This document shows, piece after piece, positions 15,889-23,330 of a stretch of 64,000 nucleotides of DNA. The DNA lies in assembly GCA_009773515.1 (NCBI GenBank), contig WSXX01000014.1, positions 1 to 64,000 on the forward strand, read 5' to 3'. Origin of the DNA: Bacteroidota bacterium. GTDB taxonomy: Bacteria; Bacteroidota; Bacteroidia; Bacteroidales; Lentimicrobiaceae. A model generated the notes under the pieces. It worked only from the letters and a program-made list of their open reading frames with translations. It had not been told where the DNA came from and did no database searches. Each line of letters opens with the position of its first letter. Within the stretch, counting starts at the first letter, position 1. A program made the translations under genes and the position numbers.

Positions 15889-16210
15889 AATGTATGTGCT
15901 TAACTATAAGCTAAGTTATGAATATTATTGTTGTTTGATGTAAATATCCTGAAATATTTTTCTATCTAAATTCCTGAAGCCAGAAAGTTGTCCAGAGGGG
16001 GACTTTTTATGCTACTCTATCAGGGCACGGATTGTTTTTTTATTTTCTATACCCAGGGCTTTTCCTATGGGTTGAGATATGCTGCCACTTTGTGGTGTTA
16101 TCCCTGGGCGTTGCCCGTGGGTTGAGGTATACTGCAACTTCGTGGAGTTATCTCAGGATATTGGCCATGAGTTAATTAATGTTGGCGCAATGCTGCAACA
16201 TAAAAGAAAA
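15889..16210. repeat. Second REP-like repeat cluster, upstream of the CHAT operon
   Basis: No gene is seen here. Repeats of the family at 9.2-10.2 kb recur from about 16010. There is a decayed P module near 16010-16030, then GGGCTTTTCCTATGGGTTGAG from 16055 and an exact Q core GGGCGTTGCCC at 16106-16116. The Q core is followed by the same GTGGGTTGAGGTAT and (C/A)ACTTCGTGG text seen at 9400-9440, and further decayed copies run to about 16200. The 15889-15990 part is AT-rich and should hold the CHAT operon promoter, but no clean TAnnTTTG was found on the minus strand. Confidence 0.75.
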
Positions 16211-16244: not shown

Positions 16245-16292
16245 GTGACCCCGACAGGATTCAAACCTGTAACCTTCTGATCCGTAGTCAGA
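16245..16292. repeat. attL: displaced 3' part of tRNA-Arg (48-bp direct repeat)
   Basis: These 48 bases are identical to 23256-23303, which lie inside the intact tRNA-Arg gene. They cover the anticodon arm to the discriminator base and then diverge. This is the classic scar of a tyrosine-recombinase element integrated into a tRNA 3' half, with this copy as the displaced fragment. Confidence 0.9.
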
Positions 16293-16308
16293 AATTTATC
16301 TATTTTGT

Positions 16309-16320
16309 TATCAATTGATA
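16309..16320. promoter_or_regulatory. 12-bp palindrome next to attL (TATCAATTGATA)
   Basis: TATCAATTGATA is a perfect palindrome 16 bases inside attL. Its half TATCAATT recurs at 16385-16392 and 16429-16436 around the integrase promoter. It may be a binding site for recombination proteins; this is inference. Confidence 0.35.
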
Positions 16321-16391
16321 TATTACAAATGTACTGTATTACAATGATATAGCTATTGTTGTTTATAATTTATTTATAGATTTTTATCAAT

Positions 16392-16415
16392 TTTGTTTTA
16401 TAAGTTGTTTTATAA
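16392..16415. promoter_or_regulatory. Left arm-type site: paired GTTTTATAA repeats
   Basis: A 24-base block contains two GTTTTATAA copies 12 bases apart. It is repeated exactly at 23184-23207, near the other end of the element. It lies 3 bases upstream of the integrase -7 box. Its position and pairing suit an integrase arm-type binding site that would also repress the int promoter. Confidence 0.6.
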
Positions 16416-16418
16416 GTG

Positions 16419-16426
16419 TATATTTG
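16419..16426 (+). promoter_or_regulatory. -7 promoter box of the integrase gene (TATATTTG)
   Basis: TATATTTG matches TAnnTTTG, lies 19 bases before the integrase ATG at 16446, and directly adjoins the arm-like repeats. It argues against the in-frame GTG at 16416, which overlaps the box. Confidence 0.5.
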
Positions 16427-16445
16427 TATATCAATTTTAAAGCAA

Positions 16446-17786
16446 ATGGAAACAACCAGACCCACCACAGCTATTACATTGGACACATTACACCCCAAAG
16501 TAGATGGAACCCTGCCATTGAAAGTTAGGGTAATATCAAACCGTAAAGCCAGATATTATGCTGTCAGCATTGAACTGGAGGACAAAACAATTATTGACAG
16601 CCTGACAAAAGACGATTTAACCAAAGCAAAAGCCCCCAAACCGAGAGGTAAATTAAAAGAAATTGCTTTGAAGTTGGCAGCTAAGGAACAGACTGCAAAT
16701 GATATATTGGCAGAAATAGAGGACAATTTCAGCTTTGAATTATTTAAGGAACGATTTACAGGTAAGAAACAAGCAGCCGACCCCGGAAACGTGTTTATGT
16801 GTTACAATGATACAATCAAAGACCTGACAGAAAATAAACAATATGGTACTGCCAGTAGTTACGATTTATCATTGAAGAGCCTGAAAGCATTCATTGAAAG
16901 TAAAACAGGCAATGAACCCAAAAAGCTATATTTCAAAGATATTACCCCTAAATGGCTGAATAATTATGAAACATTTATGACCAGTGATAAAGCCACCCTC
17001 CTACCCGATGGAAGCATAAAAGTAAAAGACGGCCTGACCCGGACAACAGTAGGTATTTATTTAAGACCTCTCAGAGCAATTTTTAACACTGCCATAGATA
17101 AAAAAGAAATTGAGGCAGCCTTATATCCGTTTAGTAGATCCGCAAAAGACAAAAGCAAATACAGGATACCAAAGGGTAAAAAGGTAAAAAAAGCACTGGC
17201 AAAAGATCAACTTAAATTATTGTTGAACGCTGAAGCTGCCACAATCGAACAAGAGAAAGCCCGGGATTTTTGGTTTTTCAGTTACACCTGCAATGGCATG
17301 AATATTAAAGATATTTGTTTGCTCAGGAATAAGGATTTAGAGCCTGACAGCTTAAGTTTTGGAAGGGCAAAGACCAGCTTAACAGACGAAAATCAAAAGC
17401 CTGTTATTGTTGTTTTAACCGATTATGCAAAAAGTATTATTGAAAAATACAGGAACCAGGATACAAGCCCGAAAGCATACCTTTTCCCGATACTCAGCCC
17501 CAAAGACAATGGACAGGAAATAAGAAGGAAAGTGCATTTATTTACCCGGTTTATAAATACACACATAAAAAAACTGGCCGTATCCGTTGGGGTAACCAGT
17601 GACATAAGCAGTTATTTTGCCCGGCATTCATTTGCTACATTGGCAATTCAGGGAGGTCAAAGCATTGAGTATGTAAGTGAAGCACTAAGCCACACTAATA
17701 TAAAAACAACCCGGGATTATTTCGCTGGCTTTGCGGATCCTGCAAAAAAGAAAATACAAGAATCTTTGATGAACTTTGATAATTAA
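16446..17786 (+). CDS. Tyrosine recombinase (site-specific integrase) of the tRNA-Arg element
   Basis: The 446-residue integrase has an N-terminal arm-binding-like region, a SAM-like core-binding domain (about residues 115-220) and a C-terminal catalytic domain. Catalytic residues visible are Lys in GRAKTS, Arg393 in YFARHSFAT, His in LSHTNIKTTR and the nucleophile Tyr425 in TTRDYFAG. The position where Arg I normally sits reads TCNGMNIKDI, with Asn283 where many Bacteroidota integrases have Arg. The ATG at 16446 was preferred because the longer frame would start inside the promoter box. It lies 153 bases from attL and should integrate and excise the element at tRNA-Arg. Confidence 0.92.
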   Translation: METTRPTTAITLDTLHPKVDGTLPLKVRVISNRKARYYAVSIELEDKTIIDSLTKDDLTKAKAPKPRGKLKEIALKLAAKEQTANDILAEIEDNFSFELFKERFTGKKQAADPGNVFMCYNDTIKDLTENKQYGTASSYDLSLKSLKAFIESKTGNEPKKLYFKDITPKWLNNYETFMTSDKATLLPDGSIKVKDGLTRTTVGIYLRPLRAIFNTAIDKKEIEAALYPFSRSAKDKSKYRIPKGKKVKKALAKDQLKLLLNAEAATIEQEKARDFWFFSYTCNGMNIKDICLLRNKDLEPDSLSFGRAKTSLTDENQKPVIVVLTDYAKSIIEKYRNQDTSPKAYLFPILSPKDNGQEIRRKVHLFTRFINTHIKKLAVSVGVTSDISSYFARHSFATLAIQGGQSIEYVSEALSHTNIKTTRDYFAGFADPAKKKIQESLMNFDN

Positions 17787-17812
17787 AAAAAAAATAAGTT
17801 TATGTTTTCATT

Positions 17813-17837
17813 TTCACTTTTTCACTAATTTCACTAA
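17813..17837. repeat. Left iteron-like array (three TTCACT units)
   Basis: TTCACT occurs at 17813, 17821 and 17830 (spacings 8 and 9). The same three-unit array in inverse orientation, with the same spacings, lies at 23085-23107. The two arrays bracket all element genes except the integrase. Confidence 0.5.
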
Positions 17838-17847
17838 TTAAAATAAA

Positions 17848-17878
17848 GCCCCGGAGGTTTGCAGACCATAGCCGGGGC
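17848..17878 (+). other. Stem-loop in the leader of the unknown element gene
   Basis: GCCCCGG (17848-17854) pairs with CCGGGGC (17872-17878), with inner GGT/ACC pairing possible, just 15 bases before the ATG at 17894. No T-run follows, so it is more likely a leader structure than a terminator for the integrase gene. Confidence 0.4.
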
Positions 17879-17893
17879 GTAAAACTTGAAGAG

Positions 17894-18643
17894 ATGGACA
17901 AAGATAAAGAAGTTGTTGTTAAAGTTGAAGATTACCTTCCTTTATACGGTTTATTATTAGCAGATAAATACGGAATTTCAGTTGATGGGAAAAATAATAT
18001 TTCCGTTGCTGAATTGTTTCAGTATCCGGAAATTGAATTAAACAAAATACATATAGAATCACTCAATCATTTTGATCGTATGTCTTTTCAGACATTTATT
18101 AAAAACAAGAAAAATGAACAGGAAGTTTTAAAGTTTGTCCGGGAGTTATTTGATGAATTTAAAACTAACGGGGGTAATCCTTTGGAATGGATTTATTCAA
18201 CCCTTTCAGATTTAGAACTCAATTCTTATAATTATCCTGCATTGCTTCGGGGCGTTATACAAACAAAGTTAATGGAGTGGGCTGATTATTACGAAAAGAT
18301 CAAAGCCCCTGTTAAAAAATTACCAGCAAAAACCTTTCCTGATTACATATTGCACCCACAAAAAAAACGTATTGCAGAAGCGTTAAAAGACACATTCACA
18401 GGCGAAAAAGGCAAAACAATTAGATTAATGATTGAGGTATTAAAAAATCAGCCTCAGCCATTGATCACATACGATAACAGACAGCGCCAAAAGATATTTG
18501 ATGCAATGAAATTGTTTTTCAATTGGGATATTGGCAGCAAGCAAAGTATTTTTGATTATAAACGATTCAATGATGAAACAGACTACAAAGCTATTGAAGT
18601 CAAAGTATTATATATTTTGAAAAGTATTAAGATCAATAGATAA
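17894..18643 (+). CDS. Unknown element protein, 249 aa
   Basis: I do not recognise this protein. It is 249 residues, soluble, without signal peptide or membrane segment, and rich in Lys, Glu and aromatic residues. The C-terminal half (ILHPQKKRIAEALKD, then KGKTIRLMIEVLKN, then KIFDAMKLFFNW) is predicted helical. This has the look of conserved proteins found next to integrases and primases in Bacteroidota islands, but I cannot name a family. It lies between the integrase and the HTH gene, preceded by an iteron-like array and a stem-loop. It is the only sizeable element gene without a replication or recombination signature, so it could be cargo, a replication initiator or a regulator. Confidence 0.75.
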   Translation: MDKDKEVVVKVEDYLPLYGLLLADKYGISVDGKNNISVAELFQYPEIELNKIHIESLNHFDRMSFQTFIKNKKNEQEVLKFVRELFDEFKTNGGNPLEWIYSTLSDLELNSYNYPALLRGVIQTKLMEWADYYEKIKAPVKKLPAKTFPDYILHPQKKRIAEALKDTFTGEKGKTIRLMIEVLKNQPQPLITYDNRQRQKIFDAMKLFFNWDIGSKQSIFDYKRFNDETDYKAIEVKVLYILKSIKINR

Positions 18644-18657
18644 AGACCTTTCAAAAC

Positions 18658-18687
18658 TTGTTTATTCTTGTTAACAAGTTTAAACAA
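18658..18687. promoter_or_regulatory. 30-bp dyad operator or origin candidate
   Basis: TTGTTTA (18658-18664) and TAAACAA (18681-18687) share a centre with the perfect inner palindrome CTTGTTAACAAG (18667-18678). Only two positions per arm are mismatched. It lies in an AT-rich gap 34 bases upstream of a -7 box, so an operator bound by an element protein, or a replication origin site, is likely. Confidence 0.55.
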
Positions 18688-18720
18688 CTAAATATCAATA
18701 GGTTAGCTATACTTATGCCG

Positions 18721-18728
18721 TATCTTTG
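18721..18728 (+). promoter_or_regulatory. -7 promoter box of the element replication operon (TATCTTTG)
   Basis: TATCTTTG is a full match to TAnnTTTG and ends five bases before the HTH gene ATG at 18734, giving a leaderless or nearly leaderless transcript that would continue through the helicase and downstream genes. Confidence 0.55.
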
Positions 18729-18733
18729 TCCGT

Positions 18734-19021
18734 ATGAAAACAACGGATATCGATACTTTAACTTTTGATCAGCTCCCAGCAGCTATTTCATTATTGATCC
18801 GGGAGGTTAACAGCCTTAAAATTGCTTTGCAGTTAGCACCCCCGGAACAAGCCGACCAGCTTTTAACAGTTGATCAGGCCGCTGCATTCCTTTCACTTGC
18901 TAAGCCCACTATTTATGCAATGTTAAGCCGGGGCGAACTGCCAAACCTGAAAAGGGGTAAACGTGTCTATTTTCAAAAATCCGATTTATTAAGGTACCTC
19001 AAAGAAGGTAAAAGGGGGTAA
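18734..19021 (+). CDS. HTH (excisionase/MerR-type HTH_17) DNA-binding protein
   Basis: This 95-residue protein has an N-terminal helical stretch and a C-terminal winged-HTH of the excisionase family. The segment TVDQAAAFLSLAKPTIYAML is followed by RGELPNLKRGKRVYFQKSD, the typical recognition helix and wing. Small proteins like this act as recombination directionality factors or as repressors. A 30-bp dyad lies upstream and a promoter box almost touches the start codon, so autoregulation is plausible. The stop is four bases before the helicase start, indicating tight coupling. Confidence 0.88.
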   Translation: MKTTDIDTLTFDQLPAAISLLIREVNSLKIALQLAPPEQADQLLTVDQAAAFLSLAKPTIYAMLSRGELPNLKRGKRVYFQKSDLLRYLKEGKRG

Positions 19022-19025
19022 CAAT

Positions 19026-20564
19026 ATGGAAATGGATATAGAAAAAACCACCCAGTACGAAATTACCCCAACTTTTGAACCCCTGCAAAGCCCTGAAACC
19101 CTTCAGGATATTAACCCCTTCAGCAAGCGGGAAAAGGAAGCCCCAGCAACCGAAAGCACAATTTTAGGGCAATTAATTGAATTGGTTCAGCCGTTGGACT
19201 TTCATTTGTTGGCATTTCCTGAATTAAGTAAATTAAGTAAAGAAGATCGGGAAAAACAGGACAAAAAAGTTAAAGAAAGGCACCTGTTAATATTGTCAGT
19301 TGAAAATATTCAGCAACTGGCAATACTTTATAATTGGGGGCTTTGTAAAAACGGGGGCTTCATATATTTATATAATGGTTGCTATTGGGTAAAGCTTGAC
19401 AAAGAAACCCTTCAGAATTTTTTAGGTAAGGTTGCCGAAAAACAAGGCATACAAAAGTTTTCAGCCCGGCATTATGAATTTAGGGAAAAACTATTAAAAC
19501 AATTCTTTGCAACCGGATTTTTAAAAACCCCGGATCAGCCCGAAAACAGAGTTTTAATAAACCTGATAAACGGCACCTTTGAAATTACCCCAACCGGCAC
19601 CCGGTTAAGACCGTTTAATTCTGAAGATTTTCTGACTTATCAGTTACCTTTTGAGTACAACCCGATAGCCCGGGCACCAATGTTTGAAGCGTTTTTAAAT
19701 AAGGTTTTGCCGGATAAAGATTTACAAAAAATACTATGTGAATTTTTGGGCTACATATTTATAAAAACCAATTTCCTGAAACTTGAAAAAGCCTTACTTC
19801 TTTACGGCACCGGGGCAAATGGAAAAAGCGTTGTTTATGACATTGTAAACGCTTTGTTAGGGGCAATGAATGTAACAAGTTATTCACTTGAAAACCTGAC
19901 AGATAAGGCCGGATATTATCGGGCAATGATTGCCGGTAAATTGGTAAACTACGCTTCAGAAATAAACGGCAAACTTGAAACTTCATTCTTTAAACAACTT
20001 GCTTCAGGTGAACCGGTTGAAGCCCGTTTACCTTATATGGAGCCGTTTATTATTTACGATTACGCAAAGCTAATATTCAACCTGAACGAATTACCCCGGG
20101 AGGTTGAACACACAAACGCTTATTTCAGGCGGTTGTTAATCATTCCTTTTGAAGTTACGATTTCTGAAGCCGATCAGGATAAACAACTGGCAAAGAAAAT
20201 AATTGAAACCGAACTTTCAGGGGTTTTTAATTGGGTTTTGGAAGGCCTGAAACGGTTACTTCAGAATAAGAAATTCACAGAAAGCCAAGCCACAGACAAA
20301 GCCCGGGAGGCCTATAAATTGGAAAGTGATAGCGTTGCATTATTCATAAATGAAATGTGTTACAAACCCAGTACAAAAAGACCGGTTTTGCTCAAAGAAC
20401 TTTACAGGGAATACAGGGCTTATTGTTTGGAAGATGGAAACCAACCCGTAAAAAAGCAAAACTTTAAAAAGCGTTTACAGGGGCAAGGCATTGTTATTGA
20501 GATACTTAACACAGGTAATAACGTAATGATTTCAAACGATGGAACACCATTACATATTGGATAA
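19026..20564 (+). CDS. P4-type phage/plasmid primase-helicase, SF3 helicase part
   Basis: The 512-residue protein has a D5_N-like N-terminal region (about residues 90-200) and an SF3 helicase core. Walker A is YGTGANGKS (Gly261-Ser268). The Walker B/sensor region is KLIFNLNELPREV, and the arginine-finger region is YFRRLLIIPFEV. A small DNA-binding-like C-terminal region follows. Such proteins unwind DNA at the replication origin of satellites, phages and plasmids. No Toprim or AEP primase active site is seen, so primase function probably lies in the next gene, which overlaps by 26 bases. An alternative start at M3 (19032) is possible. Confidence 0.9.
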   Translation: MEMDIEKTTQYEITPTFEPLQSPETLQDINPFSKREKEAPATESTILGQLIELVQPLDFHLLAFPELSKLSKEDREKQDKKVKERHLLILSVENIQQLAILYNWGLCKNGGFIYLYNGCYWVKLDKETLQNFLGKVAEKQGIQKFSARHYEFREKLLKQFFATGFLKTPDQPENRVLINLINGTFEITPTGTRLRPFNSEDFLTYQLPFEYNPIARAPMFEAFLNKVLPDKDLQKILCEFLGYIFIKTNFLKLEKALLLYGTGANGKSVVYDIVNALLGAMNVTSYSLENLTDKAGYYRAMIAGKLVNYASEINGKLETSFFKQLASGEPVEARLPYMEPFIIYDYAKLIFNLNELPREVEHTNAYFRRLLIIPFEVTISEADQDKQLAKKIIETELSGVFNWVLEGLKRLLQNKKFTESQATDKAREAYKLESDSVALFINEMCYKPSTKRPVLLKELYREYRAYCLEDGNQPVKKQNFKKRLQGQGIVIEILNTGNNVMISNDGTPLHIG

Positions 20565-21951
20565 AGGAGCAAAAAAACACATTTGCCCGGATTGCGGAAA
20601 AGGGCGGTTTGTCCGGTATATTGATACCGAAACCGGGCAATATTTGCCGGACAATTACGGGCGTTGCGACCGGGAAAGTAATTGCGGTTACCACAAGCGG
20701 CCACCACTTGAAACCCGTTGTTTCTTTGTCCCTTTCATTCAATTAATAGACTATTCAGAAAAAGCCTTTCAGGTTGTTACCGATGGGGGAACTTATTATT
20801 TACCCAAAACCCAGGTTAATGAAGTTATTGAAAATGGTTGTTACGTTACTGAATTTTATCTGAATAATAACGACAAAGCACCCGTTCACCTTTCAACTGA
20901 TTACCGGTATTATTCTGAAACCGGCACCATACAAATAAAGGACACCGAACCAAAGCCCCGGCCAAAGGTTCAACCCGTTTATTTCATTCCTGAAACCATA
21001 CTTAATGCAACCCTGAAAGGTTACCAAAATAATACTTTCATACAAAACCTTTTACAATGGTACCCGGCTGAAGATATTGAAAAAGTAATCAGTCTTTACA
21101 GGTTGGGAACAATTACCCGGGGTTACCGATCGGGGGCGGTTACGTTTCCATTTATTGACTTTGCCGGGTATGTTCGCACAATTCAGGCGAAGCAATTCAA
21201 TGAAACAAACCATACCAAAAGCACCGATTTTATTCATTCAATTATTGAACGGCACCATAGCGAAAAGGGCGAACCGTTACCCGGTTGGCTTCAGGATTAC
21301 AAACAGAATGAAAGGTTTGTTTCCTGTTTATTTGGCGAACACCTTTTAAACAGGTACCCAGTTAACCCCGTTGCATTGGTTGAAGCCCCGAAAACGGCCG
21401 TTATTGGTACCCTTTGTTATGGGTTACCCGACACCCCCGACCAGTTATTATGGTTGGCCGTTTACAATAAAAGCAGTTTAACACTTGAAAAGTGCAAAGC
21501 ATTGAAAGGCCGAAAGGTTGTTTTATACCCGGATTTAAACGCTTTTAATGAATGGAGCCAAAAGGCAAAGGATATAAACGCAAAATTGCCCGGATCCCGG
21601 TTTGTTGTTTCTGATATTTTGGAACGTAACGCAAGCGAAACCGACAAAAGCAAAGGTTTGGATTTAGCTGATTACCTTATCCGATTTGATTACAAACAAT
21701 TTAGGAAGGTACAAACCTATACTGAACCGGTAACACAACCACAGGCCGAAATATGGCAGATCATTGAAAGGCAATTTACAGGCCGTTTAATTCCTGATGT
21801 TTGGTTAAGCCCGGATAAAACTTCAGATGAAATTTATTATGATTTGGTTGTATTATCTGCTGATTGCCTGATTAATTACGGTTTGGATATTACCCCGGAT
21901 CAGTATTACAATGCTTTGAAAAGCAGAGAATCACAGTTATTAAACAATTAA
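20539..21951 (+). CDS. Zn-ribbon/Toprim-like primase (DUF6371-type)
   Basis: The 470-residue protein begins with a four-cysteine zinc ribbon (Cys16, Cys19, Cys43, Cys49), like the DNA-template-binding module of DnaG/gp4 primases. In the middle, VALVEAPKTAVIG (Glu282) and VVLYPDLNAF (Asp332, Asn334) match the glutamate and acidic motifs of a Toprim fold. This combination is usually annotated DUF6371 in Bacteroidota islands. It overlaps the helicase gene by 26 bases in another frame, so the two are translationally coupled and likely form a split primase-helicase. The long C-terminal region after residue 390 has no recognised motif. Confidence 0.85.
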   Translation: MEHHYILDKGAKKHICPDCGKGRFVRYIDTETGQYLPDNYGRCDRESNCGYHKRPPLETRCFFVPFIQLIDYSEKAFQVVTDGGTYYLPKTQVNEVIENGCYVTEFYLNNNDKAPVHLSTDYRYYSETGTIQIKDTEPKPRPKVQPVYFIPETILNATLKGYQNNTFIQNLLQWYPAEDIEKVISLYRLGTITRGYRSGAVTFPFIDFAGYVRTIQAKQFNETNHTKSTDFIHSIIERHHSEKGEPLPGWLQDYKQNERFVSCLFGEHLLNRYPVNPVALVEAPKTAVIGTLCYGLPDTPDQLLWLAVYNKSSLTLEKCKALKGRKVVLYPDLNAFNEWSQKAKDINAKLPGSRFVVSDILERNASETDKSKGLDLADYLIRFDYKQFRKVQTYTEPVTQPQAEIWQIIERQFTGRLIPDVWLSPDKTSDEIYYDLVVLSADCLINYGLDITPDQYYNALKSRESQLLNN

Positions 21952-21962
21952 ATTTTGATAAA

Positions 21963-22196
21963 ATGCCAAAGAAAGGAACTATAAACAACCCAAACGGGAG
22001 GCCGAAAGGATCAACAAATAAAAGCACCGATGAACTTCGCACACTTTTACAAACCTTCATTGATACCAATATTGAAACAATGCAGGCTGATTATGAAGCA
22101 TTGGAACCAAAAGACCGGTTAAACTTCATTGAACGTTTACTCAAACACGTTTTACCGGCACCCCTTCAGGAACTTGAAAAATTGACTGATGAATAA
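21963..22196 (+). CDS. Small element protein with NPNGRPKGS motif (DUF5681-like)
   Basis: The 77-residue protein starts with the basic segment NNPNGRPKGSTNK. This is typical of DUF5681 and similar small proteins encoded beside phage and island replication or packaging genes, followed by two acidic helices. It may bind DNA, but its function is unknown. It begins 11 bases after the primase stop and belongs to the same operon. A terminase-small-subunit role is conceivable for this motif, yet no large subunit is present. Confidence 0.75.
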   Translation: MPKKGTINNPNGRPKGSTNKSTDELRTLLQTFIDTNIETMQADYEALEPKDRLNFIERLLKHVLPAPLQELEKLTDE

Positions 22197-22227
22197 CTGG
22201 ATTTATTAATTCAAAAACTCAAAAGCC

Positions 22228-22419
22228 ATGATAAGTAAAAAACAGAAAATTGAAACGGTAAAAAAACTTATATCCGGGGAGGTTGAACATGAACCGAAAG
22301 TTTACAGAGTAATAGAGCGAAACGGAATAAAAACCTGTTCAGATCCCGATTACCCCGACAAGATAAGGCCACAGGATATTGTATTTCATATTGAAGTAAT
22401 ACAGCCGAACCATGAATAA
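22228..22419 (+). CDS. Small element protein, paralogue A
   Basis: I do not recognise this 63-residue protein. It opens with KKQKIETVKKLISGE, similar in pattern to the start of the next ORF (KRERIRIIRDLSAG), followed in both by a P.KV...I...NG segment. That suggests a tandem duplication. It overlaps the next gene by eight bases. No cysteines form a metal site and there is no membrane segment. Confidence 0.65.
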   Translation: MISKKQKIETVKKLISGEVEHEPKVYRVIERNGIKTCSDPDYPDKIRPQDIVFHIEVIQPNHE

Positions 22420-22681
22420 GAGAGAGAGAATCCGAATTATCCGGGACTTATCAGCCGGGAGCATGATTGAGCCGATAAAGGTTTGCTACATTGAAGCGAA
22501 AAACGGTAACGACCTGATAATAAAAGGCAATTATACACCGGATCAAATTAAGCTTATTGAATCGGGAAAGGTTAAAACAATTGAAGACTTTTCCGGAGTA
22601 TCAACAGAAATGCTCAAACGTATTGAATCCGGTTTTAAGCCGAAAGTTTATTTAAAAATACTGGCAATTTTGCCGGCCTAA
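22412..22681 (+). CDS. Small element protein, paralogue B
   Basis: This 89-residue protein shares the N-terminal pattern of the preceding 63-residue ORF and adds a C-terminal helical part (YTPDQIKLIESGK, then SGVSTEMLKRIESG). The function is unknown. It overlaps the preceding ORF by eight bases and shares its codon habits, which supports both being translated. Confidence 0.65.
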   Translation: MNKRERIRIIRDLSAGSMIEPIKVCYIEAKNGNDLIIKGNYTPDQIKLIESGKVKTIEDFSGVSTEMLKRIESGFKPKVYLKILAILPA

Positions 22682-22698
22682 CAATTAAAAACAATATC

Positions 22699-22995
22699 AT
22701 GATTGAAAAGAGAACGATGAACCAGATCATTGAAGCCACAATTTTAAATGTAGCTTCAACAAAACCGAACAGAAAAGCAACTGTTCAAACGGTTTTAAAC
22801 GAAATTCCAAAAATACGTTTAGGGCTAAAGCTGGAAGGTACAAACCTGATTGTTGATACCTTTTACGGTATTGAAGCCGAAACAGACTTTCAGAACAAAC
22901 TTCAGGAGGTTATTAACACCCATTCCACAACACACGAAAAAGATGGAAACGGGCATAGGATCCTGATTGTTGACCTTTTGAAGCCAAGAGTTTAA
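22699..22995 (+). CDS. Small element protein, 98 aa
   Basis: I do not recognise this 98-residue protein. It is mixed alpha/beta in appearance, with no signal peptide or membrane segment. It is the last gene of the rightward element operon, 17 bases after the previous stop, and is followed by a strong terminator. Base composition and codon use match its element neighbours. Confidence 0.65.
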   Translation: MIEKRTMNQIIEATILNVASTKPNRKATVQTVLNEIPKIRLGLKLEGTNLIVDTFYGIEAETDFQNKLQEVINTHSTTHEKDGNGHRILIVDLLKPRV

Positions 22996-23036
22996 GTTAT
23001 TCCGGGGGTATTCCATATCTATCCCCGGCCTTTTGC

Positions 23037-23074
23037 CCTGAACCGGAAGTGATTTACCCGGTTCAGGTTTTTTT
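23037..23074 (+). terminator. Rho-independent terminator of the element operon
   Basis: CCTGAACCGG (23037-23046) and CCGGTTCAGG (23058-23067) form a perfect 10-bp stem, directly followed by seven T residues. A second GC-rich hairpin (CCGGGGGTA... to ...ATCCCCGG, 23002-23028) precedes it. Confidence 0.85.
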
Positions 23075-23084
23075 ATGCTTAAAA

Positions 23085-23107
23085 AGTGAAAAAGTGAATT
23101 TTGTGAA
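23085..23107. repeat. Right iteron-like array (inverted, three units)
   Basis: AGTGAA at 23085 and 23093, then TGTGAA at 23102, give the same spacings (8 and 9) as the TTCACT array at 17813-17837, but on the opposite strand. Confidence 0.5.
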
Positions 23108-23183
23108 ATTGAAACAAAACCTTTCTTTTTTTATTTCCATTCAACCGGGGGAATTTACCCTGATTTTAGGGATATAAACCCCC

Positions 23184-23207
23184 TTTGTTTTATAAGTTGT
23201 TTTATAA
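23184..23207. promoter_or_regulatory. Right arm-type site: paired GTTTTATAA repeats
   Basis: This is an exact 24-base copy of the block at 16392-16415, in the same orientation, 49 bases inside attR. The paired nonamers at both ends of the element suggest integrase arm sites. Confidence 0.6.
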
Positions 23208-23211
23208 TAGA

Positions 23212-23247
23212 CAAAGGGTTACAACAAAAAAACGTTGTAACCCTTTG
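23212..23247 (-). terminator. Element-borne hairpin downstream of the restored tRNA-Arg
   Basis: CAAAGGGTTACAAC (23212-23225) and its perfect reverse complement (23234-23247) form a 14-bp stem, nine bases beyond the tRNA 3' end in its direction of transcription. It probably replaces the terminator displaced to 16211. The T-run after it is weak. Confidence 0.5.
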
Positions 23248-23255
23248 ATTATCAA

Positions 23256-23303
23256 GTGACCCCGACAGGATTCAAACCTGTAACCTTCTGATCCGTAGTC
23301 AGA
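23256..23303. repeat. attR: 48-bp direct repeat inside the intact tRNA-Arg
   Basis: Identical to 16245-16292. It spans tRNA positions from the anticodon stem to the discriminator base, plus one base beyond. The element supplies this copy, so the tRNA remains functional. Confidence 0.9.
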
Positions 23304-23330
23304 TACTCTATTCAGTTGAGCTACGGGGCC
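23257..23330 (-). tRNA. tRNA-Arg (anticodon ACG)
   Basis: A 74-nt cloverleaf reads on the minus strand. The acceptor stem is GGCCCCG/CGGGGTC with discriminator A, and the D stem is GCTC/GAGT. The anticodon stem is TCTGA/TCAGA around loop CTACGGA (anticodon ACG), and the T stem is ACAGG/CCTGT. No CCA is encoded. A -7 box (TATCTTTG) lies 13 bases upstream at 23343-23350. The 3' 47 bases are the integration target of the element. Confidence 0.95.

Follow-up and report, generated by a model that had tools for sequence, protein, structure and literature searches.

The first 64,000 nucleotides of contig WSXX01000014.1 (assembly GCA_009773515.1, forward strand; this whole stretch is 'the window' below) contain a 7,011-bp element at a tRNA-Arg gene, flanked by 48-bp direct repeats that match exactly. 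We read it, with a probability of about 0.68, as an integrated phage satellite of a Lentimicrobium-like Bacteroidales bacterium, belonging to a broad family whose members sit in tRNA genes, measure about 5–10 kb and carry a small terminase subunit (TerS) of the DUF5681 family. The integration site, the gene set, an empty site in a relative, the recurrence of such elements and the adjacency of DUF5681 to the large terminase subunit (TerL) gene in phages were all observed in sequence. The window element is probably functional and seems to belong to a numerous, scarcely described class of very small elements that hitchhike on phages.

A complete element in a tRNA-Arg gene

The left repeat (16,245–16,292) is a partial copy of tRNA-Arg, and the right repeat (23,256–23,303), 7,011 bp further on, is the 3′ part of the intact tRNA-Arg(acg) gene that was the integration target (23,256–23,330, minus strand; recognized by ARAGORN and Rfam). 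A chance origin for an exact 48-bp repeat within 64 kb is ruled out. The G+C content of the element is 37.3%, compared with 40.2% for the remaining window. A further pair of direct repeats, subterminal and 24 nt long (16,392–16,415 and 23,184–23,207), may serve as arm sites for the integrase. A terminator-like hairpin with a 15-bp stem (23,212–23,247, minus strand) is positioned to end the tRNA-Arg transcript and may do so; it is not significant alone, since the region holds 14 such sites against 9.3 in shuffled sequences. Just outside the left end, the window has two tandem 50-bp copies that are 80% identical (16,052–16,151).

A homologue of the right-flank gene was found in 17 of 19 genomes of the genus (a set that includes the element's own genome). 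Among the 17 loci examined, that of genome G017 had the right-flank gene, tRNA-Arg(acg) and the left-flank gene contiguous, with no integrase match and, by DNA comparison, a 49-bp stretch at the junction identical to the window. An empty tRNA-Arg site, which the initial annotation had proposed looking for, therefore exists. It is a single clean case, because the short flanking stretch examined in each of the other relatives yielded no left-flank gene. At the same G017 site (locus L242), a 21-bp stretch repeats the end of tRNA-Arg at a distance of ~100 bp from that gene, perhaps the scar of an earlier insertion.

Nine tandem plus-strand genes lie between the repeats. The first encodes a tyrosine integrase (16,446–17,786; PF00589, PF13102 and PF17293 over cut-off). 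The second (17,894–18,643) encodes a 249-aa protein with no Pfam or NCBIfam match and one PHROG match at E 0.23; it sits in a hypervariable slot between the integrase and helix-turn-helix (HTH) genes, whose proteins fell into 22 groups among 30 loci. These are followed by an HTH_17 excisionase/AlpA-like protein (18,734–19,021; PF12728 and TIGR01764 over cut-off), a D5/P4-type primase-helicase of superfamily 3 (SF3) with DUF5906 (19,026–20,564; TIGR01613, PF19263 and PF08706 over cut-off), which matched the DNA primase of PDB 7ola at E 2.8e-10, and a PG0870-related Zn-ribbon/DUF6371 replication protein (20,539–21,951; PF21957, PF19898 and NF040506 over cut-off). The DUF5681 gene, encoding the candidate TerS (21,963–22,196), comes next, and three small conserved proteins complete a 3′ cassette: 22,228–22,419 (with homologues in the related loci L040, L041, L049 and L050), 22,412–22,681 (homologues in L038 and L049) and 22,699–22,995 (a 40% identical homologue in L050). 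The first two of these small proteins have a short N-terminal motif in common, which is also seen in neighbouring proteins within other elements.

The initial annotation had described a complete ~7-kb element in tRNA-Arg with 48-bp repeats, an integrase, an HTH/Xis-like protein and an SF3 helicase, and all of these were confirmed. Its Toprim label was not reproduced; the protein at 20,539–21,951 matched Zn_ribbon_16 and the functionally uncharacterized domain DUF6371. As it had also stated, no relaxase, coupling protein, capsid or TerL was matched in the element proteins by Pfam, NCBIfam or PHROG profiles, nor was a portal. The claim that packaging genes are absent probably does not hold, given the TerS-like gene at 21,963–22,196, and the proposal of that same gene as a packaging candidate gained support from the synteny of DUF5681 with TerL (below). 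A PADLOC scan of eight window proteins gave a weak HTH match to mad1 and nothing else.

DUF5681 and the large terminase gene in phages

The product of gene 21,963–22,196 matched PF18932 (DUF5681) at E 1.1e-4, which falls below Pfam's curated cut-off, with homology spanning most of the 77 residues, beyond the basic GRPKG motif. Searching the genus genomes with PF18932 gave a match in G007 only; Pfam's own profile is thus too stringent to pick up members of this kind. We read DUF5681 as TerS because its homologues adjoin TerL directly 5′ in phages, the usual place of TerS; the window product is thus probably a small terminase subunit.

For the viral loci (best 80 of 244 confirmed), gene calls located the DUF5681 gene in 65. 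A gene of at least 300 aa lay within three genes downstream in 55 of the 65; it was immediately next to DUF5681 in 52, and within 100 bp in 50 (median gap −8). A gene of at least 240 aa was among the next three in 62 loci, and when these 62 downstream proteins were tested, at least 48 matched phrog_2 (TerL) with DUF5681 on their 5′ side. The 62 proteins formed 19 clusters at 50% identity, so the neighbourhood is not that of one phage lineage. DUF5681 was also found 20–83 bp 5′ of TerL in 5 of the 46 Bacteroidales places described below. A DUF5681 tree, in which every context not at TerL was labelled 'element', uncertain ones included, had 9 element/phage changes compared with a mean of 35 (minimum 27) in shuffles, which suggests that elements mostly carry TerS lineages of their own.

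Matches to phrog_57 ('terminase small subunit') among the open reading frames (ORFs) of the elements fell on HTH proteins, not on DUF5681, and were dismissed. Two tandem DUF5681 genes occur at one site in L201 and in L216. In L077, L080, L087, L090, L097, L102 and L111, DUF5681 is followed by a 254-aa gene that does not have the size of a TerL; these genes probably account for a phrog_14945 ('glycosyltransferase') match seen in seven members.

Related elements and apparent exchange of replication genes

Searching 393 genomes of the order with an alignment of element DUF5681 proteins gave matches in 39, at 46 places, and we read the context of every one. At 26 places (25 loci) an integrase lay upstream and TerL was absent; 19 of these (18 loci) had an opposite-strand tRNA gene within 5 kb downstream. 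Other contexts accounted for 15 places; eight of these, most of them cut by a contig end, had a tRNA on the opposite strand no more than 1.5 kb downstream. Among the loci scanned for repeats, the genus elements being part of the set, 17 had the integrase and DUF5681 genes together between copies of the tRNA end.

Within the genus, a DUF5681 relative was present in 7 of the 19 genomes, that of the window among the seven, and repeat-bounded elements spanning 5.1–6.5 kb occupied tRNA-Cys (G016), tRNA-Arg(cct) (G006), tRNA-Lys (G007) and tRNA-Arg(tct) (G001). G068, from another family, carries an element in tRNA-Asn (47-bp repeat, 7.5-kb span) with the gene order of the window element: integrase, HTH, D5, DUF6371, DUF5681. 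Complete att-bounded elements of about 5–9.7 kb with the same gene order were found in other tRNA genes of other Bacteroidales. Their common plan is an integrase, a variable gene, an HTH gene, interchangeable replication genes, DUF5681, small genes and, usually, a tRNA end. The gene set that the initial annotation had suggested seeking elsewhere in Bacteroidota is thus a recurring one.

This recurrence bears on the idea that the window holds a degenerate remnant of a prophage or of a larger integrative and conjugative element (ICE), the latter having been entertained in the initial annotation. A TerS without TerL could be such a relic. The reading frames are intact, the 48-bp repeats are exact, and one compact gene order recurs across many hosts and tRNA genes, which makes decay very unlikely as an explanation.

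The replication genes vary among the genus elements and G068, and the slot across the family holds D5, DUF3987, AAA_25, DUF6371, BT4734-like, G2P-type and other replication proteins, while a 3′ cassette recurs, made up of the tail of the final replication protein followed by DUF5681 and by one, two or three small genes. The last ~75 residues of the window's DUF6371 protein, a C-terminal domain encoded at 21,730–21,948 (plus strand), shared 59–75% identity with the C-terminal ends of replication proteins that are otherwise unrelated to it, in the elements at L038, L039, L040 and L041; a second C-terminal end, unrelated to the first, was common to L049 and L043 at 51%. The replication proteins seem to be exchanged by recombination immediately 5′ of DUF5681. 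That DUF5681 and the small genes persist through such swaps suggests selection on the 3′ cassette. It also argues against a plasmid-like integrative element that replicates on its own and is spread passively, by generalized transduction or transformation, with no specific packaging. Confident names go only to the integration and replication genes, and the replication modules vary as they do in plasmids, both as this account would have it; we regard it as improbable.

Conserved proteins of ~450–510 aa occur in L039 (12,625–13,995), L040 (8,541–9,917), L041 (7,084–8,610) and L049 (9,144–10,574), with motifs reminiscent of family A DNA polymerases. A PolA-like reading based on these motifs found no PDB match at E 0.1 and was set aside.

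No relaxase, capsid, portal or TerL was among the families listed for 48 element ORFs and for 123 element ORFs (the latter scan excluding those of L212 and L220). The PHROG families were the top 25 of 59 for the 48 ORFs and the top 25 of 49 for the 123, so that rare matches may be hidden; a further tally for the 48 ORFs comprised 25 of 30 families, and the Pfam tally for the 123 was complete. Taking these results together, we lean, at somewhat better than even odds, towards a widespread family of minimal Bacteroidales satellites with a DUF5681 TerS beside the tRNA att site. Its members would swap replication engines freely, among them D5 helicase, DUF3987, AAA/DnaB-like and DUF6371 proteins, would join these through exchangeable C-terminal domains to an unchanging packaging cassette and would load themselves into helper capsids by means of their own TerS.

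Helper, route of transfer and known systems

If the window element is a phage satellite, a helper phage would induce the AlpA/Xis-like HTH protein, integrase and Xis would excise the element at the 48-bp repeats, and the D5 primase-helicase and DUF6371 protein would replicate it. The DUF5681 TerS would bind a packaging site on the element and recruit the TerL of the helper, bringing the DNA into helper capsids. Packaging as a concatemer would be likelier than as a monomer, because the element is 7 kb long with no recognized capsid-size gene, and because concatemers are reported for the phage-inducible chromosomal minimalist islands (PICMIs; PMC10803314).

Several points weigh against this reading. 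Excision of the window element and its packaging into particles are predictions from its repeats, its genes and synteny. No profile names DUF5681 as TerS, its PHROG matches being of 'unknown function', and the AF2 monomer model folds as a helical hairpin for which a BFVD search gave no significant match. In phage BF1-TP2, DUF5681 lies ~19 kb away from a Terminase_6C-like gene, and 7 of the 62 viral cases have the 254-aa neighbour, probably not a TerL. The search for a helper prophage in the element's own genome gave nothing beyond weak hits to TerL profiles, and all prophages found with DUF5681 at TerL came from other families. Scans of viral contigs with two queries, the DUF6371 protein and the C-terminal domain, gave no relatives. 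Two element ORFs match the G2P-type replication protein PF05144, which may be of the HUH type to which relaxases also belong.

With phrog_2, the genus gave a single convincing TerL (G018, E 6.4e-32), which had no DUF5681-like gene directly upstream in the ORF list, and DNA comparison between elements and phages gave short matches only, most of them around a conserved motif or a tRNA. Of the initial proposal, a satellite dependent on a helper phage or ICE, the helper-dependent minimal element finds support; the choice of helper is addressed only indirectly, and phage is favoured.

Were the helper an ICE or conjugative plasmid, the window would hold a mobilizable element without a relaxase of its own (oriT-only, or with the relaxase lost) and DUF5681 would be an AT-hook-like DNA-binding accessory. 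The DUF5681 profile does weakly match the HMG-I AT-hook (E 0.036), the integrase–HTH–primase order resembles that of NBU1, Tn4555 and similar mobilizable elements of Bacteroides, and the PG0870-related family brings mobilizable transposons to mind. Against this stand the DUF5681 homologues at TerL in phages and the lack of any DUF5681 match in 72,556 plasmid records. The relaxase family PF03432 was matched in 0 of 13 genomes and the coupling protein family PF12696 in 1 of the 19 genus genomes, which also leaves a larger-ICE origin unsupported; both families may miss Bacteroidota proteins, since a Bacteroides control genome was unmatched in either search. Mobilization by conjugation is disfavoured, and we consider this explanation doubtful.

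Phage satellites have been described mainly from Proteobacteria and Firmicutes, and a literature text search, which left out subscription papers and most preprints, found no paper on satellites of Bacteroidota. If the satellite reading is true, such an element may be present in about 1 in 10 of the Bacteroidales genomes sampled, 39 of 393 having the gene, in most cases away from TerL. DUF5681 would gain a function, and its gene could be used to track down satellites and helpers in communities of gut, sediment and wastewater.

NBU1 and Tn4555 resemble the window element in their tyrosine integrase, HTH protein and primase, and NBU1 likewise enters a tRNA gene; the mobilization protein that they carry was not found here, and the relaxase expected of an integrative mobilizable element did not appear in the Pfam scan of the element. 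P4-like satellites have a primase-helicase of the same D5/P4 family (TIGR01613), but the capsid-size and other genes of P4 (sid, psu) are unmatched here.

The phage-inducible chromosomal islands (PICIs), Gram-negative or of the SaPI type, have an integrase, xis/alpA, a primase-helicase, in some cases a terS homologue, and no structural genes (PMC6092414). The window element has an att site with integrase, an xis/AlpA-type regulator and a primase/replication module (PF12728, PF19263, TIGR01613), with the DUF5681 gene as terS candidate by synteny. It differs in having no recognized interference gene, in drawing its candidate TerS from an unannotated family and in size, Gram-positive PICIs being typically about 15 kb (PMC6092414), compared with 7.0 kb here and about 5–10 kb for the family.

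PICMIs, islands of Vibrionaceae averaging 6.7 kb, were sought with a model of PF00589, PF12728 and DUF5906/DUF3987, and none was found complete outside Vibrio (PMC10803314). Like the window element, they have an integrase, an AlpA-type HTH protein and a DUF5906/DUF3987 primase, are without capsid-remodelling genes, and carry a variable gene after the integrase (iolg/icg, 13 families) that resembles the hypervariable slot at 17,894–18,643 (PMC10803314). They integrate at fis, which that paper calls their hallmark, and no terS homologue is reported there, whereas the elements described here occupy tRNA genes and carry a DUF5681 gene; because of the fis hallmark, the window element is not a PICMI as defined. 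Packaging of PICMIs was demonstrated by experiment (PMC10803314), whereas that of the window element is predicted from sequence. By this comparison, the window element would work like a PICI or a PICMI and, in size for the one and integration site for the other, belongs to neither as defined.

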